Shown: positions 31,053 through 40,507 of the stretch, piece after piece | How the letters are laid out: every line of letters starts with the position of its first letter | How positions within the stretch are numbered: position 1 is the stretch's first letter | NCBI RefSeq assembly: GCF_000422945.1 | Contig: NZ_KE383964.1 | Span: 1 to 64,000 of the forward strand | DNA: 64,000 nucleotides | Reading direction: 5' to 3' | Origin: Daejeonella oryzae DSM 19973 | GTDB taxonomy: Bacteria; Bacteroidota; Bacteroidia; Sphingobacteriales; Sphingobacteriaceae | The notes under the pieces: generated by a model | The model's input: the letters and a program-made list of their open reading frames with translations, nothing else | The model's database searches: none | What the model was told of the DNA's origin: nothing | Program-made: the position numbers and the translations under genes

Positions 31053-31547
31053 ATGAAAAAAATTTACTTATTAGCTCTTGCAGTTCTTGGATTTTCAGCG
31101 AACTCTTTTGCACAGGCAACTGCTACAGCTTCTTCATCAGCTACTATTATCAGCCCGATTGCAATTACTAAAACTGCAGATTTGAACTTCGGTCAGATTT
31201 TTACAAACCCGGCAGCCGGTACGGTTGTTCTTGATGTTGCAGGTGTTCGTACTGCATCTGTTCATACATTATTTGGAAGTGCGCAAACAAGAGCACAGTT
31301 TGATGTAACGGGTTCTAATGCCTCAACGTTTTCAATTACATTGCCAGCTTCTCCTATCACCCTTAATGGATCTGTATCCGGAATTATGACTGTTGATAAT
31401 TTTGTTTCTGATCTTGGTGCTACAGGTACTTTGGTTGCCGGTGCTAAAACTATTATTGTTGGTGCTACATTAAATATTCCTGCAGCAGTTCCTACTGGAG
31501 TATATACAAACGCATCCGGTTTAGCCGTAACTGTTAACTACAACTAA
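31053..31547 (+). CDS. DUF4402 protein, pilin-like (candidate major subunit)
   Basis: This 164-residue exported protein has a signal peptide of about 20 residues (ending SFAQ) and a mature all-beta domain of DUF4402 type: TKTADLNFGQIF near 43-54, FDVTGSNASTFSITLP, and a C-terminal strand TGVYTNASGLAVTVNYN. The N-terminal stretch of the mature form (ATATASSSATIISPIAIT) alternates small and hydrophobic residues, as a donor strand in fibre subunits would. It is first in the cluster and is followed by a terminator, then chaperone, adhesin, second DUF4402 and usher-like genes. A role as the most abundant subunit is inferred from this order. Confidence 0.85.
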   Translation: MKKIYLLALAVLGFSANSFAQATATASSSATIISPIAITKTADLNFGQIFTNPAAGTVVLDVAGVRTASVHTLFGSAQTRAQFDVTGSNASTFSITLPASPITLNGSVSGIMTVDNFVSDLGATGTLVAGAKTIIVGATLNIPAAVPTGVYTNASGLAVTVNYN

Positions 31548-31577
31548 CATATCCTATTTAATAAATAATGCTCTCTC

Positions 31578-31607
31578 AAAAAAGCTGCTTAGGCAGCTTT
31601 TTTTTTG
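31578..31607 (+). terminator. Terminator between the first DUF4402 gene and the chaperone gene
   Basis: AGCTGC-ttag-GCAGCT is preceded by six A and followed by nine T residues. It lies about 30 bp after the first DUF4402 stop. Partial read-through would give much more subunit than chaperone or usher mRNA. Confidence 0.9.
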
Positions 31608-31667
31608 AAACATCAAGGTGAATTATAACCCTGATTATACTCCATTATATATTTTAATAAAAACAAA

Positions 31668-32507
31668 GTGTCTGCCTCCTTTAAATTTATCATCCGGTTC
31701 CTATTTAGCTTTTTCTGTTTCGTTTTTACTTCTTTAGGCTTAATGGCCCAGGGAAATTTATTGATTAATCCTAAAAGAGTTGTTTTTGAGGGCTCTCAGA
31801 GAATAGTACAACTTAACCTGGCAAATACCGGAAGTGATTCAGCAAAGTACAATATTACTTTCCTCCAGTACCGGATGAAAGAAGATGGAAATTTCGAGGA
31901 AATTACCCAGCCGGATTCACTGCAAAACTTTGCTGATAAATATTTGCGGATTTTTCCGCGTTCGGTGGTTTTGGGCCCCAATGAAGCGCAGGTAGTAAAA
32001 GTTCAGTTAACCCGCACCAATTTGTTGCAACCCGGAGAATACCGTTCACATTTATATTTCAGAGCGGTGCCGGATGAAAAGCCATTGGGAGAAATTAAAA
32101 AAGATACTTCAAAAACGATCTCTGTAAAGTTAATTCCGATTTTCGGGATCAGTATTCCTATAATCATCCGCTCCGGTGAATCAACGGCCAAAGTGAATAT
32201 TACTAATTTATCATATCAGTTGCTGGAAGGTAATATTCCTCAACTAAAATTGCAGTTTAACCGTACGGGGAATATGTCGGTATACGGTGATTTAACTGTA
32301 AATCATATTTCTCCCAAAGGCATATCAACTCAGGTGGGCACTGCAAAAGGAGTATCGGTATATACTCCTAATTTGAAAAGAAAATTTATACTCAATCTGG
32401 AGAAAAACAAAGTGAATTTCAGCGAAGGAAAGCTGGAAGTAATATATACTACTCAATCTGATGCAAAATCAGAATTAATAACTAAAAGCGTATTTCAGTT
32501 AAATTAA
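31668..32507 (+). CDS. PapD-like periplasmic fimbrial chaperone
   Basis: This 279-residue protein has a signal peptide (hydrophobic run FLFSFFCFVFTSLGLMAQ) and two immunoglobulin-like domains. The N-terminal domain shows the chaperone pattern: INPKRVVFEGSQRIVQLNLANTG, then RIFPRSVVLGPNEAQVVKVQLTR, GEYRSHLYFRAVPDEKP (F1 strand) and a G1-type strand ISVKLIPIFGISIPIIIR with alternating hydrophobic residues that could fill a subunit groove. The start is GTG; the only later Met before the mature protein lies at the cleavage site, so the signal peptide requires the GTG. It lies 34 bp before the adhesin gene. Similarity is to the fold, so specificity is inferred. Confidence 0.8.
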   Translation: MSASFKFIIRFLFSFFCFVFTSLGLMAQGNLLINPKRVVFEGSQRIVQLNLANTGSDSAKYNITFLQYRMKEDGNFEEITQPDSLQNFADKYLRIFPRSVVLGPNEAQVVKVQLTRTNLLQPGEYRSHLYFRAVPDEKPLGEIKKDTSKTISVKLIPIFGISIPIIIRSGESTAKVNITNLSYQLLEGNIPQLKLQFNRTGNMSVYGDLTVNHISPKGISTQVGTAKGVSVYTPNLKRKFILNLEKNKVNFSEGKLEVIYTTQSDAKSELITKSVFQLN

Positions 32508-32541
32508 AACAACATTTCAGATTGTTTTAGATGATCTAAAA

Positions 32542-35130
32542 ATGTCAGTAATAGATATAAAGTATTTCTCTTTAAAATTTATTCTTTTTGGGATACTCTT
32601 ATTTGCTGGATTAGAAAGTCGGTCTCAGAGTATTACTGTAACTAATGTTGCTGTTACTCCTGTTTGTGCAGGCTCTGAAGTTACTGTAACTTTTACCGCC
32701 AGAAATGGCAATGTTAACAATAGATATTCAAATTCTTCAAATTACACTATTTATTTAAGCAATAGTACGGGAACAAATTTTTCAGCAATGTCCACTTTCC
32801 AGCTAAATTGGGCCTATGAAACAAAAAATAATCAGCCAACAACTGGTTTAACACGCACTTTTCTGATTCCTGCTACAGCTCTTACAGGTAATGGTTATAA
32901 AATTTCAATAGGTTCTACAAGCCCAACTTTTAATGGGAGCGGAGGAAATGGCGCCTCGTTATCATTCATTATAAACGCGGTTTTAACCCCGGGATCAATA
33001 GGATCTAATCAGGTAGTGTGCTTTAATGCTGTTCCTGCTGCTTTAACCAGTACCCTAAGCCCAACAGGAGGTAATGGTACTTACTTATATCAATGGCAAT
33101 CCTCGCTTGATAATGTTAACTTCTTGAATATACCGGGAGCGACAACCTCTACCTACGCTCCGCCAATGTTAAGTCAAACCACTTATTTTCGCCGGATAGT
33201 TAGTTCCGGACCATGTGCCAGTCAGGTGTCTAATGTTATTAATATTACTGTTAATTTTGCCGGGAGATGGACAGGGGCTTTAAGTACTGACTATTTAAAT
33301 TCGGCAAACTGGCAATGCGGAGTTATTCCGGTTCCGGCCACAAATGTAATAATCCCTTCGGGCCTGGCCAGATACCCCGTTTTGAATTCTGGAATTGGTT
33401 ACGCTAATAACCTGACTATTGAGTCGGGAGCTTCAATAATAATTTCTGGAGGGAATTTAAAAATCGCAGGAACCATCAGCAATAGCGGGACATTTAATGC
33501 AATTAATGGCGCTGTTGAATTAGGAGGATCTGTTCCCAGAATTATTGCTGCAGGTTTATTTACCAGCAATCAGATCAAAGATCTGGTAATTAATAATTCA
33601 ACAGGTACCACAATGGGCGGCACAATAAACCTGACCGGAATACTGAAAGTGACTAGCGGTAATTTTAACAGCAATGGCTTTCTGACACTTGTTTCTAATT
33701 CCACGCAAAGTGCCGTGATTGATGGGAGCGGAGCGGGTCAGATTTTAGGAAACGTTACCATTCAGGGATATTTAACATCCGGGTTTGGATATAAATATCT
33801 AAGCTCTCCTTTCCAGGGAGCCACCGTTAATGAATTAGCTGATGATCTGAACCTGGCAGCTACTTTTCCATCTGTATATGCCAACAATGAAAATATGCTT
33901 ACTGCAGGCTGGATTAATTATACAAATCCCGCTGGGATATTAAATCCCATGCAGGGCTATGCGTTTAACTTTGGAACGTCCGCTACTCCAAAAACATTCA
34001 GCATAAGCGGTGTAGTAAATAACGCAACCGTTTCTCGCACACTGTTCAATCACGACCATACTTTTACGCAGGGATTTAATCTGGTAGGAAATCCCTATCC
34101 TTCTCCGGTAAATTGGAATAATGCCTCCGGATGGATAAAAACGAATATTGATAATGCCCTGTATTTTTTTAAGGCAGGCAGTACCGATCAGTACGACGGA
34201 TTATATAGCAGCTATGTCAACGGTGTTTCCAGTGATGGAGGTATCAGCAGCAATATTATTCCGGCAATGCAGGGTTTTTTCGTACACGTTTCGAACGGGG
34301 TTTTTCCTGTTTCCGGAAGTCTTACAATAAATAATTCGGCCCGGATTACAAGTAATGCCTCCGCCAAAATCCTTAAGGGAAAAGGAGAGATACTCAGCAG
34401 TTTAGCAGAAAATTTTAATCAATCTGATTTAACCGAGAGCAAAATAATGCTGCGTTTGCAGGCAGCTTATTCTAATAATGATTTTATTTCAGATCCTACC
34501 GTGATCTATTTTGAAGATGAATCAAGTAGCAAATTTGACAGGCAAACGGATGCGCTTAAACTGATGAATACGGACAGGAAAGTTCCTAATTTATATTCCA
34601 TTTCTTCAGATGAATTTAATCTTTCAATCAATGCGCTTCCGCGGACGTATGATTCTTTGATCACAGTTCCTCTGGGATTAAAAACTGAAGAGAGCGGACA
34701 GGTTGATTTCGTGGCATCAAACCTAAGCAGTATTCCTGCCGGCTGGAACATTTACTTGAGAGATGCTCAAAATAATAAGCTTCATAATTTACGCCGGGAT
34801 CAGAAATATAGCTTACAGCTTAATGCCGGAAAATTTGAAAACCGATTTTCAGTTTTATTCAGTTTGAAAGATCTTAGCTTACAATCCCATTCGCTTAATT
34901 CTCTAAATGCGTATTACTCTAATGGTAAATTAATTTATCAGTTATCCGGAATAGCCGAAAGCACGAAAGGCCAAATCATGATCAGCAATATGAAAGGCCA
35001 GGTTTTAAACCGCCAGGATTTTATGGGTTTTGCAAACCATGAACTTAAGATTGAATTAGGGCCGGGAATATATATTGTCAATTCCTATACAGAAAAGGGA
35101 ATGTTCTATAAAAAGATAGTCGTCAATTAA
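32542..35130 (+). CDS. Large secreted adhesin-like protein with T9SS type A sorting domain
   Basis: This 862-residue exported protein has an N-terminal signal peptide (ending ESRSQS). Ig-like beta domains follow: a first one from about 30, then one from 150 with the pattern YLYQWQSSLDNVNF...TYFRRIVSSGPC. A beta-helix-like region rich in Asn, Gly and Ser comes next (about 240-410), then a block with NLVGNPYPSPVNW and PAMQGFFVHV. The last 80 residues form a type A T9SS C-terminal domain (MISNMKGQVLNRQDF, GPGIYIVNSYTEKG, KKIVVN). It should be secreted and anchored by the Por machinery. Its stop overlaps the next start by one base, so it belongs to the cluster. A tip adhesin or surface partner role is inferred. 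Confidence 0.8.
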   Translation: MSVIDIKYFSLKFILFGILLFAGLESRSQSITVTNVAVTPVCAGSEVTVTFTARNGNVNNRYSNSSNYTIYLSNSTGTNFSAMSTFQLNWAYETKNNQPTTGLTRTFLIPATALTGNGYKISIGSTSPTFNGSGGNGASLSFIINAVLTPGSIGSNQVVCFNAVPAALTSTLSPTGGNGTYLYQWQSSLDNVNFLNIPGATTSTYAPPMLSQTTYFRRIVSSGPCASQVSNVINITVNFAGRWTGALSTDYLNSANWQCGVIPVPATNVIIPSGLARYPVLNSGIGYANNLTIESGASIIISGGNLKIAGTISNSGTFNAINGAVELGGSVPRIIAAGLFTSNQIKDLVINNSTGTTMGGTINLTGILKVTSGNFNSNGFLTLVSNSTQSAVIDGSGAGQILGNVTIQGYLTSGFGYKYLSSPFQGATVNELADDLNLAATFPSVYANNENMLTAGWINYTNPAGILNPMQGYAFNFGTSATPKTFSISGVVNNATVSRTLFNHDHTFTQGFNLVGNPYPSPVNWNNASGWIKTNIDNALYFFKAGSTDQYDGLYSSYVNGVSSDGGISSNIIPAMQGFFVHVSNGVFPVSGSLTINNSARITSNASAKILKGKGEILSSLAENFNQSDLTESKIMLRLQAAYSNNDFISDPTVIYFEDESSSKFDRQTDALKLMNTDRKVPNLYSISSDEFNLSINALPRTYDSLITVPLGLKTEESGQVDFVASNLSSIPAGWNIYLRDAQNNKLHNLRRDQKYSLQLNAGKFENRFSVLFSLKDLSLQSHSLNSLNAYYSNGKLIYQLSGIAESTKGQIMISNMKGQVLNRQDFMGFANHELKIELGPGIYIVNSYTEKGMFYKKIVVN

Positions 35131-35654
35131 TGATACTTATTAACCACATATCATTTAAGTCGGCTGTTATTTTCATAACGGTTTTTCTTGCGCTTGCAAG
35201 TTTTCGCAAAGACGCAATGGCCCAGCAAAAACCGCCGCGGCCCTTGTCTGTGGTGGTTAATCCGTTAAATGGGTTAAATTTCGGGGCTTTTTACCAGGGC
35301 ATTTCCGGCGGCAGCGTAATTGTATATGCCAATGGTTCCAGGTCTGTAAGCGGTGACGTAATTCTGGCCAATCTGGGCTACCTGTTTTCGCCCGCGATAT
35401 TTGAAGTGCAGGCTCTTCCGGGAACCTTAATTCATATTTTGAACGGCCCGGACATCACCTTAACCGGAAGTAACGGAGGCTCAATGACTATGAAAATAGG
35501 CGAAGCCAGCACAGGCAGTACTTTTATTTCAACACTTAATTTTCCTTCCAGTCATCAGGTAAGAATCGGTGCGATTTTAACCGTTGGAAATCCGGTGGCA
35601 AATCCTCCCGGTGCTTATAGTGGAACGTTCTCAGTTACATTTATACAGGAATAG
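35130..35654 (+). CDS. Second DUF4402 protein, pilin-like (candidate minor subunit)
   Basis: This 174-residue exported protein has a hydrophobic signal segment (SAVIFITVFLALASF) cleaved near AMAQQ, followed by a DUF4402 domain with NPLNGLNFGAFYQG, VYANGSRSVSGDVIL and PPGAYSGTFSVTFIQE. The domain pattern matches the first DUF4402 gene, though the sequences differ widely, as expected for different subunits of one fibre. The start overlaps the adhesin stop (TAATG), which implies translational coupling. The usher-like frame follows directly. Confidence 0.83.
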   Translation: MILINHISFKSAVIFITVFLALASFRKDAMAQQKPPRPLSVVVNPLNGLNFGAFYQGISGGSVIVYANGSRSVSGDVILANLGYLFSPAIFEVQALPGTLIHILNGPDITLTGSNGGSMTMKIGEASTGSTFISTLNFPSSHQVRIGAILTVGNPVANPPGAYSGTFSVTFIQE

Positions 35655-35725
35655 CCATCAAATTACTTGTCTCACATATCTCACAGTGGATTAAGTACAG
35701 ATATACTGCTTTTTGTAAAAACCTG

Positions 35726-38440
35726 TTGCTTGCTGTTGCCATACTTGTTCTTATAAATCCTCATGATGCAATTGCCGATGATGAAGATGGAGAGTTGCCT
35801 TTTGATGAAATATCTGTATTTCTGAATGTGCAGGGAATTGGCGGAACCGAACTTCCAGCCCTCATAAAAGGCCAGGCGGTGTACCTCTCGGTAACCGATA
35901 TTTTCAATTTTTTAAAGATCAGGAATACATCAAACTCAGATAATGAAACCATATCCGGTTTTTTTATAGATCAGCAGGCCAATTACCTGATTGATAATCT
36001 TCATAATTTGATTGAATACCAGGAAAAGATATTTCCCTTGTCAAAGGATGATATAATTCGTGTACAGGATAATCTGTATTTAAAGTCGGGTGTTTTCGGT
36101 AAAATATTTGGACTCAATTGCACTTTTAATTTCAGAAATTTATCAGTTGATTTAAATACGAAACTCGAATTACCCCTTATTCGTGAACTCCGCCAGGAGT
36201 CAATGCGGCAAAACGTACGCTCACTGAAAGGAGAGTTAAAAGCGGACTCGCTGATTAACCGCGATCATCCTGCATTTCATCTTGGGATGGCAGATTGGTC
36301 GGTGACCAATGCTACTGAAACTTTAACCGGACAGGATACCCGTTTGAATTTAAATCTGGGCGCAATTATAGCTGGCGGAGAGACCAATATTTCACTTAAT
36401 TACTCAAGCAGAGAACCTTTTGAAGAAAGACAACAATACTACCTCTGGCGTTATGCGGATAATGAAAATAAGTTTTTGAAACAAACTTCAGTTGGCAAGA
36501 TTTTTTCACAATCTACTTCTTCGATTTTTGCACCCATTGTAGGGTTTCAGCTCAGCAACACACCTACAACTTACCGCAGATCATTCGGTACTTATAACCT
36601 GAGCAACAGAACTGAACCGGGCTGGATGGTTGAGCTCTATGTAAATAATGTGTTGGTGGATTATAAAAAAGCCGATCCTTCCGGCTTTTACGCTTTCGAA
36701 GTTCCGCTGGTTTATGGAAATTCTGAAGTTAAACTTCGCTTTTACGGCCCTTTCGGTGAAGAACGGTTCAGTCAGCAAAACATCAGTATTCCTTTTAATT
36801 TCCTCCCTGAAAAAGAGTTTGAATACAGCATTAGTGCAGGTATTGTAGAAGATGGTCTGAATACCAAATATTCTCGATTAGCAATGAACTATGGCCTCAG
36901 TAAACGGATAACTTTGGGCGGAGGAATGGAATATCTTTCATCTCTGGCAAACACTAAGAATATTCCCTTCATCAGCACGTCTTTAAGGCTTTCTTCAAAC
37001 TTATTAGTAAGCAGTCAGTATGACCATGGGATAAGGTTTAAAAATATTCTTACCTACAGGCTTCCTGCTAATATGCAGTTAGAGCTGAATTATAACCTTT
37101 ATAAAAAAGGGCAGCAGGCCATAAATCATAATTTTCTGGAAGAACGTAAAGTAATGCTTTCCATGCCTTTAAAGGCAGCAGGCATATCTTTCTTTTCCCG
37201 CATGTCATTCAATCAGATCCTTTTGCCGGGAAGTAAATTCTCAACTGCCGAGTGGCTGGTGTCTGGCGTGATAAAAGGGGTAAGTACAACCATCAACACG
37301 TATGCTTTACTGAATGATTTTTTTACACCATATGTTTACAGCAATATTTCCATGTCAGTAAAATTACCCGCGGGATTTATATTCACTCCTTCAGCTCAAT
37401 ATTGGTATCAGAAAAATGATCTTATTTCCATGAGGGTTGGTCTGGAAAAACTGGTGATGAAACATGGATTTTTGAATTTAAATTACGAGGAAAATTTTCA
37501 AAGCCGCTTCAATAACCTGAGTTTGGGTTTCAGGTATGATTTTTCTTTTGCACAGACTGCTTTTGTAACCCGGAAAGGAAACACCGGCACGTCCTTGCTT
37601 CAGTCAGCCCGCGGAAGTTTAATGTATAATCAAAAGTCCAGTTTCCTGGGAGTAAATAATCGAAGCAGCGTGGGTAGAGGAGGAATGATTATTAGTTCTT
37701 TTCTGGATTTGAACAGAAACGGAATACGTGATGAATCTGAACCTAAAGTGAGTGGTCTGAAAATTCGCTTAAATGGCGGCCGGATTGAAAGCAGCGTTAA
37801 GGATACCACTTTGCGGGTGTTTGATCTGGAACCTTATGTAAGTTATTTGCTTGAATTGGACCCAAACAGCCTCGATAATATTTCATGGAATCTGGAGAAA
37901 AAGATACTGAAGGTCGCGATTAATCCAAACCAGTTAAAACTGGTTGAAATTCCGGTATCGGTTATTGGTGAAGTGAGCGGTACTGTATTCATTACAGACA
38001 AGGAAAGTACAAAAGGACTTGGAAGGATTCTGGTTTGTATTTATAATGCCAAAGGCGTAATGGTAGCCCGCACGCTCACAGAATCTGACGGCTATTTCAA
38101 TTATCTGGGCTTGTCTTCCGGGAAATATACAGCCGCATTGGATAGCGCTCAGCTTCATAAATTAAATATGACGGCTGCTCCGGAAAAAATCAGTTTTGAA
38201 ATTATAAATACACGGGAGGGTGATGTAGAAGATGCGATAGATTTCACTCTTCAAGGCTCTATAGATATTCAAGCAAAACCAACACTTAAAGTGGCTAAAA
38301 AGCCTGTAATTGTTCCCCGCAAAAAAGTTCAAAAAACCTTCAGGAAAAAACCTGTTAAAGCAAAATCAGGAATTAGCCCTGCGAAAAAGCTCTATCCAAA
38401 AGGCAATATTATTCCTGCAAAATCCCCGGCAAAAAAATAA
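35726..38440 (+). CDS. Outer-membrane usher-like protein of the DUF4402 cluster
   Basis: This protein of about 904 residues resembles fimbrial ushers of the TcfC/FimD type. An N-terminal domain (VYLSVTDIFNFLKI at 52-65) precedes the first strands. An usher-like middle segment at 280-350 has YRRSFGTYNLS, EPGWMVELYVNNVLV and FYAFEVPLVYGNSEV, ending RFYGPFGEERF. Barrel strands continue to about 640. A domain with an EF-hand-like LDLNRNGIRDESEP (near 655), a carboxypeptidase-regulatory-like domain and a lysine-rich tail end the protein. No ATG or GTG start exists; the frame is open back to 35651, and TTG at 35726 gives a signal peptide without a charged n-region, so translation may start upstream. 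The family assignment rests on pattern, not a search. Confidence 0.72.
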   Translation: MLAVAILVLINPHDAIADDEDGELPFDEISVFLNVQGIGGTELPALIKGQAVYLSVTDIFNFLKIRNTSNSDNETISGFFIDQQANYLIDNLHNLIEYQEKIFPLSKDDIIRVQDNLYLKSGVFGKIFGLNCTFNFRNLSVDLNTKLELPLIRELRQESMRQNVRSLKGELKADSLINRDHPAFHLGMADWSVTNATETLTGQDTRLNLNLGAIIAGGETNISLNYSSREPFEERQQYYLWRYADNENKFLKQTSVGKIFSQSTSSIFAPIVGFQLSNTPTTYRRSFGTYNLSNRTEPGWMVELYVNNVLVDYKKADPSGFYAFEVPLVYGNSEVKLRFYGPFGEERFSQQNISIPFNFLPEKEFEYSISAGIVEDGLNTKYSRLAMNYGLSKRITLGGGMEYLSSLANTKNIPFISTSLRLSSNLLVSSQYDHGIRFKNILTYRLPANMQLELNYNLYKKGQQAINHNFLEERKVMLSMPLKAAGISFFSRMSFNQILLPGSKFSTAEWLVSGVIKGVSTTINTYALLNDFFTPYVYSNISMSVKLPAGFIFTPSAQYWYQKNDLISMRVGLEKLVMKHGFLNLNYEENFQSRFNNLSLGFRYDFSFAQTAFVTRKGNTGTSLLQSARGSLMYNQKSSFLGVNNRSSVGRGGMIISSFLDLNRNGIRDESEPKVSGLKIRLNGGRIESSVKDTTLRVFDLEPYVSYLLELDPNSLDNISWNLEKKILKVAINPNQLKLVEIPVSVIGEVSGTVFITDKESTKGLGRILVCIYNAKGVMVARTLTESDGYFNYLGLSSGKYTAALDSAQLHKLNMTAAPEKISFEIINTREGDVEDAIDFTLQGSIDIQAKPTLKVAKKPVIVPRKKVQKTFRKKPVKAKSGISPAKKLYPKGNIIPAKSPAKK

Positions 38441-38505: not shown

Positions 38506-39060
38506 TTATTCAATAGTTCTGATACGAACTTTAACCGCGGGGTTTCCCTGATAAATTGTATAAGCCTCCAGGTTTTGAGTGGCTATGGAGCCTACTGTAA
38601 GAATTGCATGCGAAAAAACTCTTATCCCCGGGCAAACTACTGATTTTGCACCTATCCATGCACCTTCTTCAATATAAACTTCACGGGTGATAAGGTCAAA
38701 GTAGGGTGATTTGTAATCGTGATTGCCGGTTAATATCATGCATCCCTGCGAAAGACACACATTTTTTTCTAAACTTACCCGGGCCAGGTTTTCTATACAG
38801 CAGTTTTCCCCAATCCAGGTATGATCATCAATACTTAGTTTCCAGGGATATTTTATATTTACGAAAGGTTTGATTCGTACATCACGACCAATTTTTGCTC
38901 CGAATAAGCGTAATATCATGACCAGAATTACGCTGAATGGAATAAGCCCCGAACGGAAAAAAAGAGTACTTATAAAATACCAGATAAAAATTTTGAGAGA
39001 AGAAGCTCCGGCATCAAAATCTTTTTTATCGAAACGTTTTTTAAGTTGAGTTTTGTTCAC
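38506..39060 (-). CDS. WcaF-like hexapeptide-repeat acetyltransferase
   Basis: This 184-residue enzyme is of the left-handed beta-helix acyltransferase family and resembles the colanic-acid acetyltransferase WcaF. Hexapeptide turns run through about 66-175 (VNIKYPWKLSIDDHTWIGENC, then VSLEKNVCLSQGC), with the likely catalytic His in TGNHDY. An N-terminal stretch includes a hydrophobic helix (IFIWYFISTLFFRSGLIPFSV). It should acetylate a surface sugar. It is last in a three-gene operon after the exosortase gene (18 bp gap) and converges on the usher gene. Confidence 0.88.
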   Translation of the reverse strand: MNKTQLKKRFDKKDFDAGASSLKIFIWYFISTLFFRSGLIPFSVILVMILRLFGAKIGRDVRIKPFVNIKYPWKLSIDDHTWIGENCCIENLARVSLEKNVCLSQGCMILTGNHDYKSPYFDLITREVYIEEGAWIGAKSVVCPGIRVFSHAILTVGSIATQNLEAYTIYQGNPAVKVRIRTIE

Positions 39061-39078: not shown

Positions 39079-39657
39079 TTAATTAAGGCTTTTACGCTGA
39101 TTCTGATATGTATTGGTCCATATAAAAATGCTTCCCAGCAAAATGATATACAATACCCAGTTAAACAAAGTATGGTGGTCCAGTTTAAATGGCAATGATG
39201 AGCTTCTCCAGAAAAGAGTTATCAAAATAAACCGGGCAATATTTAATACCTGAATTCCGATTATGCCGCCAATTAAAAAAATAATTTTGTTTTGAAAGGA
39301 TTTGCCCGGCCATGCAATTATAAATGCGGTAAAAAAGCTCATCACTCCAAATCCCAGGCAGGAATATACCACATTAATGCCTCCAATTCCGTATGCATGC
39401 AAAGTATATTCGGATGTATAAATGGTATAATTCAGGCTCTTTAATATAAGGGCTGAAGCCCAGATCAGAAAAGTTCTTAAAGCCCTGATGTAATTTAGAT
39501 GCTCATCCAGAAAAGGGCTGTAATAATTTCCGGGAGCTGTAATGCCCATAAAAAAAATATTGAAGTAATAGAACAACACAAAAAAAACAGTGAACAGAAA
39601 TACAAATCGGAAAGATGGATTATCCCATAATTTTTTAAGGCCGGCACTATTGCTCAT
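39079..39657 (-). CDS. Exosortase-family transmembrane protein (short Bacteroidota type)
   Basis: This 192-residue protein has about five membrane helices and the full catalytic set of the exosortase/archaeosortase family: Cys100 (VVYSCLGFG), Arg142 (NIARFIL) and His161/His162 (LDHHTLFN). The residues are spaced as in XrtF/XrtX/XrtY-type short exosortases; the subtype was not fixed. Such enzymes cleave a C-terminal sorting signal or take part in exopolysaccharide export. No protein with a clear PEP-CTERM-like tail was seen nearby. It overlaps the glycosyltransferase gene by 11 bp and is followed by the WcaF-like gene. Confidence 0.85.
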   Translation of the reverse strand: MSNSAGLKKLWDNPSFRFVFLFTVFFVLFYYFNIFFMGITAPGNYYSPFLDEHLNYIRALRTFLIWASALILKSLNYTIYTSEYTLHAYGIGGINVVYSCLGFGVMSFFTAFIIAWPGKSFQNKIIFLIGGIIGIQVLNIARFILITLFWRSSSLPFKLDHHTLFNWVLYIILLGSIFIWTNTYQNQRKSLN

Positions 39658-40507
39658 TCTTTTTTTCTTTTAAAATCTCTGAAATTTTAACGTCAACAAT
39701 TATACGGAACCAAAATCCCTGTAAAAAATGAAACAGGATACCGGTTCTTCCATCCAGAATTCCCAATTGAAAAATCATCCGGTATGTAAAATATAAAAAA
39801 GGACGCAGAAAAAGCGGAAGCTTCCACCATAAATTCTTCAGTGAAGCGATCCGCTCATCGGGACTTCCCCAAAAATTAGGCTTTATGGTTTGAAAACGAA
39901 GTTTGTTCATCCGTTCAATTTCTTCGTTTGCCAGCAAATCGCTGTAATGATTATGCTTGCTGATCCAAAAACTTATGCGGTTTTCTTTGAGGTTTTCTTC
40001 AATGAGATGCCCCTGTTTCCAGATGATAGATTTTCCGGATACGATAAACCGGTGATCCATATTTTCGTTGAGATCAGAATAGCCGGTCCCGAACCTGAAC
40101 ATTTTTAAAAGATATCTCGGATAATATCCGCCATGCCGGATCCATTTTCCTTTGAAAAAATTTTTTCGGTTGAAATAGATTCCGCTCACATCGGTAAAAT
40201 CTGCATCTCTGAATTGGGAAAGCTGTTGAAGTAATTCTGGGCTTACAATATGGTCGGCATCCAGTCCAATAATCCATGGAGTTTGAACAGGGAAAGTTTT
40301 CAATGCTTTATCCCATTGCCTGGGATGATTTTCAAAGGGATTGGTTTCAACACTTACGCCGTAATTCCGGCATATTTGCAGCGTTGAATCGGTGCTGCCC
40401 GAATCAAGTACAAATGTTGGAGCACCTAAACTTTTTATAGATTCAAGTAATCTGGGAATGTGTAATTCCTCATTAAAAGTTAAAATAATGAAAGAGAAAT
40501 CAGGCAT
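39647..40507 (-). CDS. Family 2 glycosyltransferase
   Basis: This 286-residue GT-A enzyme has the family 2 pattern: FIILTFNEELHIPRLLES at 6-23, LDSGSTDST at 34-42 and the metal-binding DxD (Asp83-Ala-Asp85 in GLDADHIVSP). The N-terminal part resembles the WaaE/KdtX type that adds a sugar to LPS core or oligosaccharide. It has no signal peptide. It is first in a three-gene operon, overlaps the exosortase gene by 11 bp and has a consensus promoter 30 bp upstream. It probably builds part of a surface glycan that the WcaF-like enzyme acetylates. Confidence 0.88.
   Translation of the reverse strand: MPDFSFIILTFNEELHIPRLLESIKSLGAPTFVLDSGSTDSTLQICRNYGVSVETNPFENHPRQWDKALKTFPVQTPWIIGLDADHIVSPELLQQLSQFRDADFTDVSGIYFNRKNFFKGKWIRHGGYYPRYLLKMFRFGTGYSDLNENMDHRFIVSGKSIIWKQGHLIEENLKENRISFWISKHNHYSDLLANEEIERMNKLRFQTIKPNFWGSPDERIASLKNLWWKLPLFLRPFLYFTYRMIFQLGILDGRTGILFHFLQGFWFRIIVDVKISEILKEKKNEQ

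Follow-up and report, generated by a model that had tools for sequence, protein, structure and literature searches.

The known fimbrial type of Bacteroidota is the type V fimbria (FimA, Mfa1), which is made from lipoprotein precursors through protease-triggered assembly and uses neither a chaperone nor an usher. In chaperone-usher pili, the pilin carries a C-terminal zipper of alternating hydrophobic residues with a glycine about 14 residues from the end and an aromatic residue in the penultimate position, and the Afa/Dr pili have single-domain tip subunits (DraD, HdaB) that lack a donor strand. Chaperone-usher pili have been described for Proteobacteria, Cyanobacteria and Deinococcota (PMC10104325). 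Here we describe a five-gene cluster of Daejeonella oryzae DSM 19973 (Bacteroidota; Sphingobacteriaceae) that very probably encodes a divergent chaperone-usher pilus. It lies in positions 1 to 64,000 of the forward strand of contig NZ_KE383964.1 (assembly GCF_000422945.1), a stretch of 64,000 nucleotides that is referred to below as the window. A literature search, with most subscription journals outside its scope, returned no paper on chaperone-usher systems in Bacteroidota beyond passing mentions, and no paper naming DUF4402, the Pfam family of the two pilin-like proteins encoded here.

Like the classical Fim and Pap pili, the cluster combines a pilin with a donor strand and zipper, a PapD-like chaperone, and an usher with a plug and C-terminal domains. 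Unlike them, it has an usher below Pfam detection and DUF4402 pilins in place of Fimbrial-family ones, lacks a two-domain adhesin, and includes a predicted substrate of the type IX secretion system (T9SS) within the operon. A chaperone-usher line with DUF4402 pilins that Pfam does not recognize is well supported on the basis of fold, motif and linkage.

The five co-directional open reading frames (ORFs) listed in an earlier note, which was made from the letters of the window, are all present on the + strand (31053-38440; 164, 279, 862, 174 and 904 aa), as are the motifs quoted there, with RIFPRSVVLGPNEAQ and GEYRSHLYFRAVP in the 279-aa chaperone and EPGWMVELYVNNVLV and FYAFEVPLVYGNSEV in the 904-aa usher. 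DUF4402 is the sole Pfam match of pilA (87 bits) and pilB (66.5 bits; cut-off 25.2), and genome-wide searches found neither a further DUF4402 gene nor a PapD_N match other than this chaperone. In a sample of 345 genomes of the phylum, strong usher relatives (>300 bits) occur in 49, and a chaperone relative lies within 5 kb of 50 of the 51 strong usher relatives and within 1 kb of 47. Given this linkage across the phylum, the gene arrangement is not due to chance. The usual order among 80 named loci is pilA (1-3 copies), chaperone, adh, pilB, usher, with some loci carrying an adh-less variant (pilA-chaperone-pilB-usher), and in most loci adh shares a few bases with pilB. Close to the source genome the cluster is patchy, being present in 3 of 59 other relatives.

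The 904-residue protein is, in a predicted rather than a solved structure, an usher fold with a barrel of about 24 strands and an inserted plug. In its AlphaFold2 (AF2) model, built from an alignment of 35 sequences (predicted local distance difference test score (pLDDT) 80.7, predicted template modelling score (pTM) 0.63), an N-terminal domain is followed by barrel strands that run from residue 184 to residue 635; about 7 of these strands precede the inserted plug, which has five short strands, and 18 come after it. A protein without such a barrel and plug, which the earlier note had named as the outcome that would contradict it, is not what the model returned. In a Foldseek search of the PDB the top 18 matches are all FimD or PapC (best E 1.1e-26), and VIA-align gave Z scores of 17.6-21.1 for fifteen usher entries, with the best barrel of another kind at 14.4. 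The structural alignment with FimD extends to residue 843. As the Pfam usher family PF00577 exceeds its cut-off in 0 of the 345 genomes, ushers of this family have gone unnamed, appearing as ‘carboxypeptidase regulatory-like’ proteins; a match below threshold is found in 3 of 11 diverse relatives.

A search of contigs with the single usher sequence returned no relatives, and a second search with an alignment returned 136; the relatives used for the usher model all came from this second search. The start of the window usher is uncertain. Translation from the TTG codon yields a signal peptide that lacks a basic n-region, and the frame is open upstream of this codon (35655-35730), through IKYRYTAFCKNLL, and includes the basic stretch IKYRYTAFCKN. 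No ordinary start codon in this upstream frame would yield a full usher signal peptide, which suggests that the start is a rare ATT or that the sequence contains an error. Distant ushers from other families of the phylum are larger (~1270-1500 residues) and carry additional SPOR, TPR and repeated immunoglobulin (Ig)-like domains.

The 279-residue protein is, by sequence comparison, the PapD-like chaperone that the earlier note had proposed, with a weak hhalign alignment as the indication of its second Ig domain. Its own match to PapD_N (E 4.7e-4) falls just below the cut-off, and 18 of 26 close relatives match this domain (best 1e-7). Comparison of the family profile with eight aligned fimbrial chaperones of E. 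coli K-12 using hhalign gave a probability of 92% over 189 columns and placed the family-invariant Arg37 on the position of the cleft arginine in FimC. For archaic chaperones, residues that anchor the subunits have been described (PMC4654587), and no assignment of these was possible in the chaperone family. Matches of the chaperone to WxLIP, fn3_5 and Big_14 were set aside as a guide to its identity and attributed to a shared Ig-like fold. The chaperone family also matches, weakly, the WxL-interacting protein domains known from Gram-positive bacteria, which may reflect a common PapD-like fold.

The DUF4402 fold is, in the model, an incomplete pilin-type Ig domain that in pilA carries an N-terminal donor extension. 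The AF2 model of mature pilA, built from 38 sequences (pLDDT 91), has no secondary structure in residues 1-16, and in the DUF4402 pilin-type Ig model an N-terminal extension of 12-13 residues is free. Foldseek ranked Caf1 and FimA chains first (E 5e-3 and up), nearly all of the best 50 VIA-align rows belong to pilins of chaperone-usher systems (Z up to 7.9), and residues 13-144 of FimG superpose on residues 13-144 of the pilA model; CsuA/B is 20% identical in this comparison. The predicted donor strand alternates, with hydrophobic residues at mature positions 2, 4, 6, 8, 10 and 12 in 73-100% of 26 sequences and at positions 3, 5, 7, 9 and 11 in no more than 8%. The C-terminal zipper was examined in 118 DUF4402 proteins, in which positions -4, -6 and -8 are hydrophobic in 97-100% and positions -5, -7 and -9 in 10-14%, glycine occupies position -14 in 73% and position -16 in 22%, and a penultimate aromatic residue occurs in 36%, chiefly of the pilA type. 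A complete Ig domain with no groove for a donor strand, the other outcome that the earlier note had set against its proposal, was not seen; instead the fold has pilin neighbors and a free, alternating extension. The donor strand of the archaic CupE pilus is likewise reported to be 13 residues long (PMC10104325).

The second DUF4402 protein differs from the first. The distance between the glutamine that follows the signal peptide and the first FG within the fold is mostly 27 residues in pilA-like proteins; in pilB it is 12-14 residues in adh-less clusters, leaving the fold only, and about 21 in adh clusters, where pilB begins QExPP[RK]P. The mature N-terminus of pilB is short throughout the family and provides no donor strand, and for this reason pilB is probably a tip subunit. 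The two DUF4402 proteins of the earlier note therefore stand as members of one family and not as equivalents, since the donor strand is found in pilA alone. In the role proposed for it pilB resembles the donor-less, single-domain tips DraD and HdaB, which differ in having no proline tag and no T9SS partner.

The product of adh has a conserved C-terminal part of about 600 aa and a variable N-terminal part that exceeds 1,700 residues in some loci. Because it ends in a T9SS type A sorting domain, it probably leaves the cell by the T9SS and not through the usher, whereas the earlier note had listed it as the large adhesin of a chaperone-usher-like system. The sorting-domain profile TIGR04183 matches all ten adh proteins tested, with the window protein and 6 of 9 relatives above the cut-off, and the source genome encodes SprA (2614 bits). 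Domain content was rejected as a mark of adh, as its parts recur at ~30% identity in T9SS-type proteins elsewhere in the class; only the cluster-linked subfamily reaches about 400-670 bits, as it does in most loci.

The proline tag of pilB accompanies adh, occurring in 63 of 64 adh loci, with QEPTPRP in the remaining one, and in none of the 8 adh-less loci. For this count of 72 loci, L090 was coded as adh-positive with its adh downstream of the usher, L083 was hand-coded (the protein upstream has, by eye, a T9SS-like C-terminus, and the pilB N-terminus is extended but different), and L116 (short contig) and L125 (broken gene) were omitted. The usher tree shows three independent joint changes of tag and adh. 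A link between pilB and adh is suggested tentatively by this association. Slightly more doubtful is an organelle built by two machines, in which the proline-tagged, donor-less tip pilin binds the giant T9SS-exported protein or is joined to it by the T9SS sortase.

Taken as a chaperone-usher pilus, the system would work as follows. The PapD-like chaperone would cap DUF4402 subunits in the periplasm and hand them to the usher barrel, which would thread them out of the cell, and polymerization would proceed by donor-strand exchange as the 13-residue N-terminal strand of each pilA enters the groove of the preceding subunit. As pilB could accept a strand only, it would take the distal tip. The adh protein, exported separately by the T9SS, would engage the fiber tip through the N-terminal proline tag of pilB and may serve in adhesion.

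Several observations weigh against this reading. The fiber itself is a prediction from genes and models. The earlier note had suggested a hidden Markov model search for both components, and this succeeded with PapD_N in the chaperone family and failed with PF00577, to which the window protein has no match. A profile-profile comparison of the family ushers with six ushers of E. coli K-12 gave a probability of 22%, which is not significant, and the VIA-align alignments leave out the N-terminal 150 residues of the usher and therefore do not carry homology of the chaperone-binding domain. The second basic residue by which classical chaperones anchor subunits was not located in the family, and the structural matches of pilA, coherent as a set, are singly marginal. 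The three independent changes of tag and adh give a sign test p of 0.25, which is not significant, and some of the loci were hand-coded. PDB sequence searches with the single proteins and with chaperone, usher and pilin profiles returned a marginal PapD match and no other pilus protein; the link to chaperone-usher proteins came only from structure comparison, Pfam and profile-profile comparison.

Other explanations were weighed against the same evidence. A type V fimbria would suit the phylum and the Ig-like subunits of a surface fiber, and is nevertheless extremely improbable: neither mature pilA nor mature pilB contains a cysteine and mature pilA is predicted to begin with a glutamine, which excludes a lipoprotein precursor, no Pfam match to type V families was found, and, unlike in the protease-triggered FimA and Mfa1 systems, a chaperone and an usher are encoded. 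An export platform derived from a chaperone-usher system, which would release single DUF4402 proteins without forming a fiber and leave the T9SS protein as the main surface product, would account for adh being the largest variable part, for its presence in most clusters and for the few DUF4402 genes in some. We consider it improbable, as the strictly alternating donor strand and the pilin C-terminus of pilA-like proteins fit polymerization and chaperone capping, and as clusters without adh persist.

The cluster may instead belong to the archaic class (Csu of Acinetobacter, CupE of Pseudomonas) and form no line of its own, which is less likely than not but likelier than either of these. The resemblance lies in the subunit fold, with Csu and CupE subunits among the structural matches of highest identity (20-21%), and in the wide phylogenetic spread, archaic systems reaching several phyla (PMC10104325). 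The classical subunits FimG and PapG are equally good matches, however, and no archaic chaperone match appeared among the PDB sequences. The marks of the class are an usher placed in the archaic clade by phylogeny, SCPU subunits and a carboxylate anchor formed by Arg89 and Tyr196 of the chaperone; in the present comparison, which covered subunit structure and Pfam matches, SCPU is not among the Pfam matches and the subunits have no cysteines, unlike CupE1, for which a conserved disulfide is reported (PMC10104325). Quite possible, at somewhat less than an even chance, is that the T9SS protein and the fiber are merely co-regulated and that the pilB tag hitchhikes while serving another purpose. 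The small number of independent tag-adh changes leaves room for this; the distribution of the tag over loci with and without adh, its loss in L059 and L133, which are nested within adh-bearing clades, and the overlap of adh and pilB speak against it.

The divergent DUF4402 line proposed in the earlier note holds in fold, motif and linkage, and does not hold as one confined to Bacteroidota. In tblastn searches, plasmids of Polaromonas, Sphingopyxis, Novosphingobium and Pseudoalteromonas were found to carry both chaperone and usher, and the plasmid operons span Alpha-, Beta- and Gammaproteobacteria. Four records (L148-L151; Polaromonas, Sphingopyxis and Pseudoalteromonas) have the order DUF4402, chaperone, ‘carboxypeptidase regulatory-like’ protein; their chaperones are 27-35% and their ushers 23-27% identical to those of the window, and they differ in having no T9SS protein nearby and no pilus annotation. 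As the ushers of the proteobacterial plasmids group with phylum members outside the window's class, the usher family is, judged from the tree, either old or transferred. IS6 transposases lie near the operon in both Polaromonas records. On the chaperone-usher reading, DUF4402 would gain a function, a class of barrels annotated as ‘carboxypeptidase regulatory-like’ could be named as ushers, and hidden pili would be added to many Bacteroidota of soil and water. If the T9SS link is true, adhesin and fiber would come from separate machines and be joined outside the cell.

Table 1. Positions of the cluster genes, their predicted parts and related features (window coordinates unless a locus is given)
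Feature	Position	Strand	Basis
pilA (DUF4402 protein; probably the major pilin, predicted to be donor-competent)	31053-31547	+	Pfam DUF4402 87 bits; AF2 model
pilA predicted donor strand, mature residues 1-13, QATATASSSATII	31113-31151	+	alternating pattern; no structure in model
terminator-like hairpin and T run in the pilA-chaperone gap	31578-31608	+	RNA fold -14.2 kcal/mol, z -3.4
PapD-like chaperone (periplasmic), 279 aa, GTG start codon	31668-32507	+	PapD_N, hhalign
adh (large surface protein, predicted T9SS substrate), 862 aa	32542-35130	+	cluster-linked family, TIGR04183
adh T9SS type A sorting domain	34948-35127	+	TIGR04183 23.6-29.7 bits, cut-off 23
pilB (second DUF4402 protein, predicted tip subunit), 174 aa	35130-35654	+	Pfam DUF4402 66.5 bits
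pilB proline tag QQKPPRPL, predicted mature N-terminus	35223-35246	+	tag with adh, none without adh
usher-like outer-membrane protein, 904 aa	35726-38440	+	AF2 model; Foldseek and VIA-align matches
usher predicted barrel, residues 184-635	36275-37630	+	model strand list; FimD/PapC pore alignment
usher predicted plug, residues 296-356	36611-36793	+	five short strands in model
usher C-terminal beta domains, residues 651-845 (SdrD_B, carboxypeptidase-regulatory-like)	37676-38260	+	SdrD_B 38.2 bits; FimD alignment
distant large ushers	L050:10904-15088, L051:10065-13883, L052:2058-6575		

With regard to expression signals, the Bacteroidota promoter motif TAnnTTTG is absent upstream of pilA. The hairpin that follows pilA would fit production of the first pilin in excess. 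Conserved attenuation 3' of pilA was considered and dropped, as comparable hairpins occur in just 7 of 38 homologous pilA-chaperone gaps.

Downstream of the cluster and convergent with it lies a gene for exosortase Y (XrtY; 39079-39657, - strand; 182.6 bits, cut-off 160), flanked by genes for a WcaF-like acetyltransferase (38506-39060) and a glycosyltransferase (39647-40507). The locus of a congener has ORFs of comparable sizes 3' of its usher gene.

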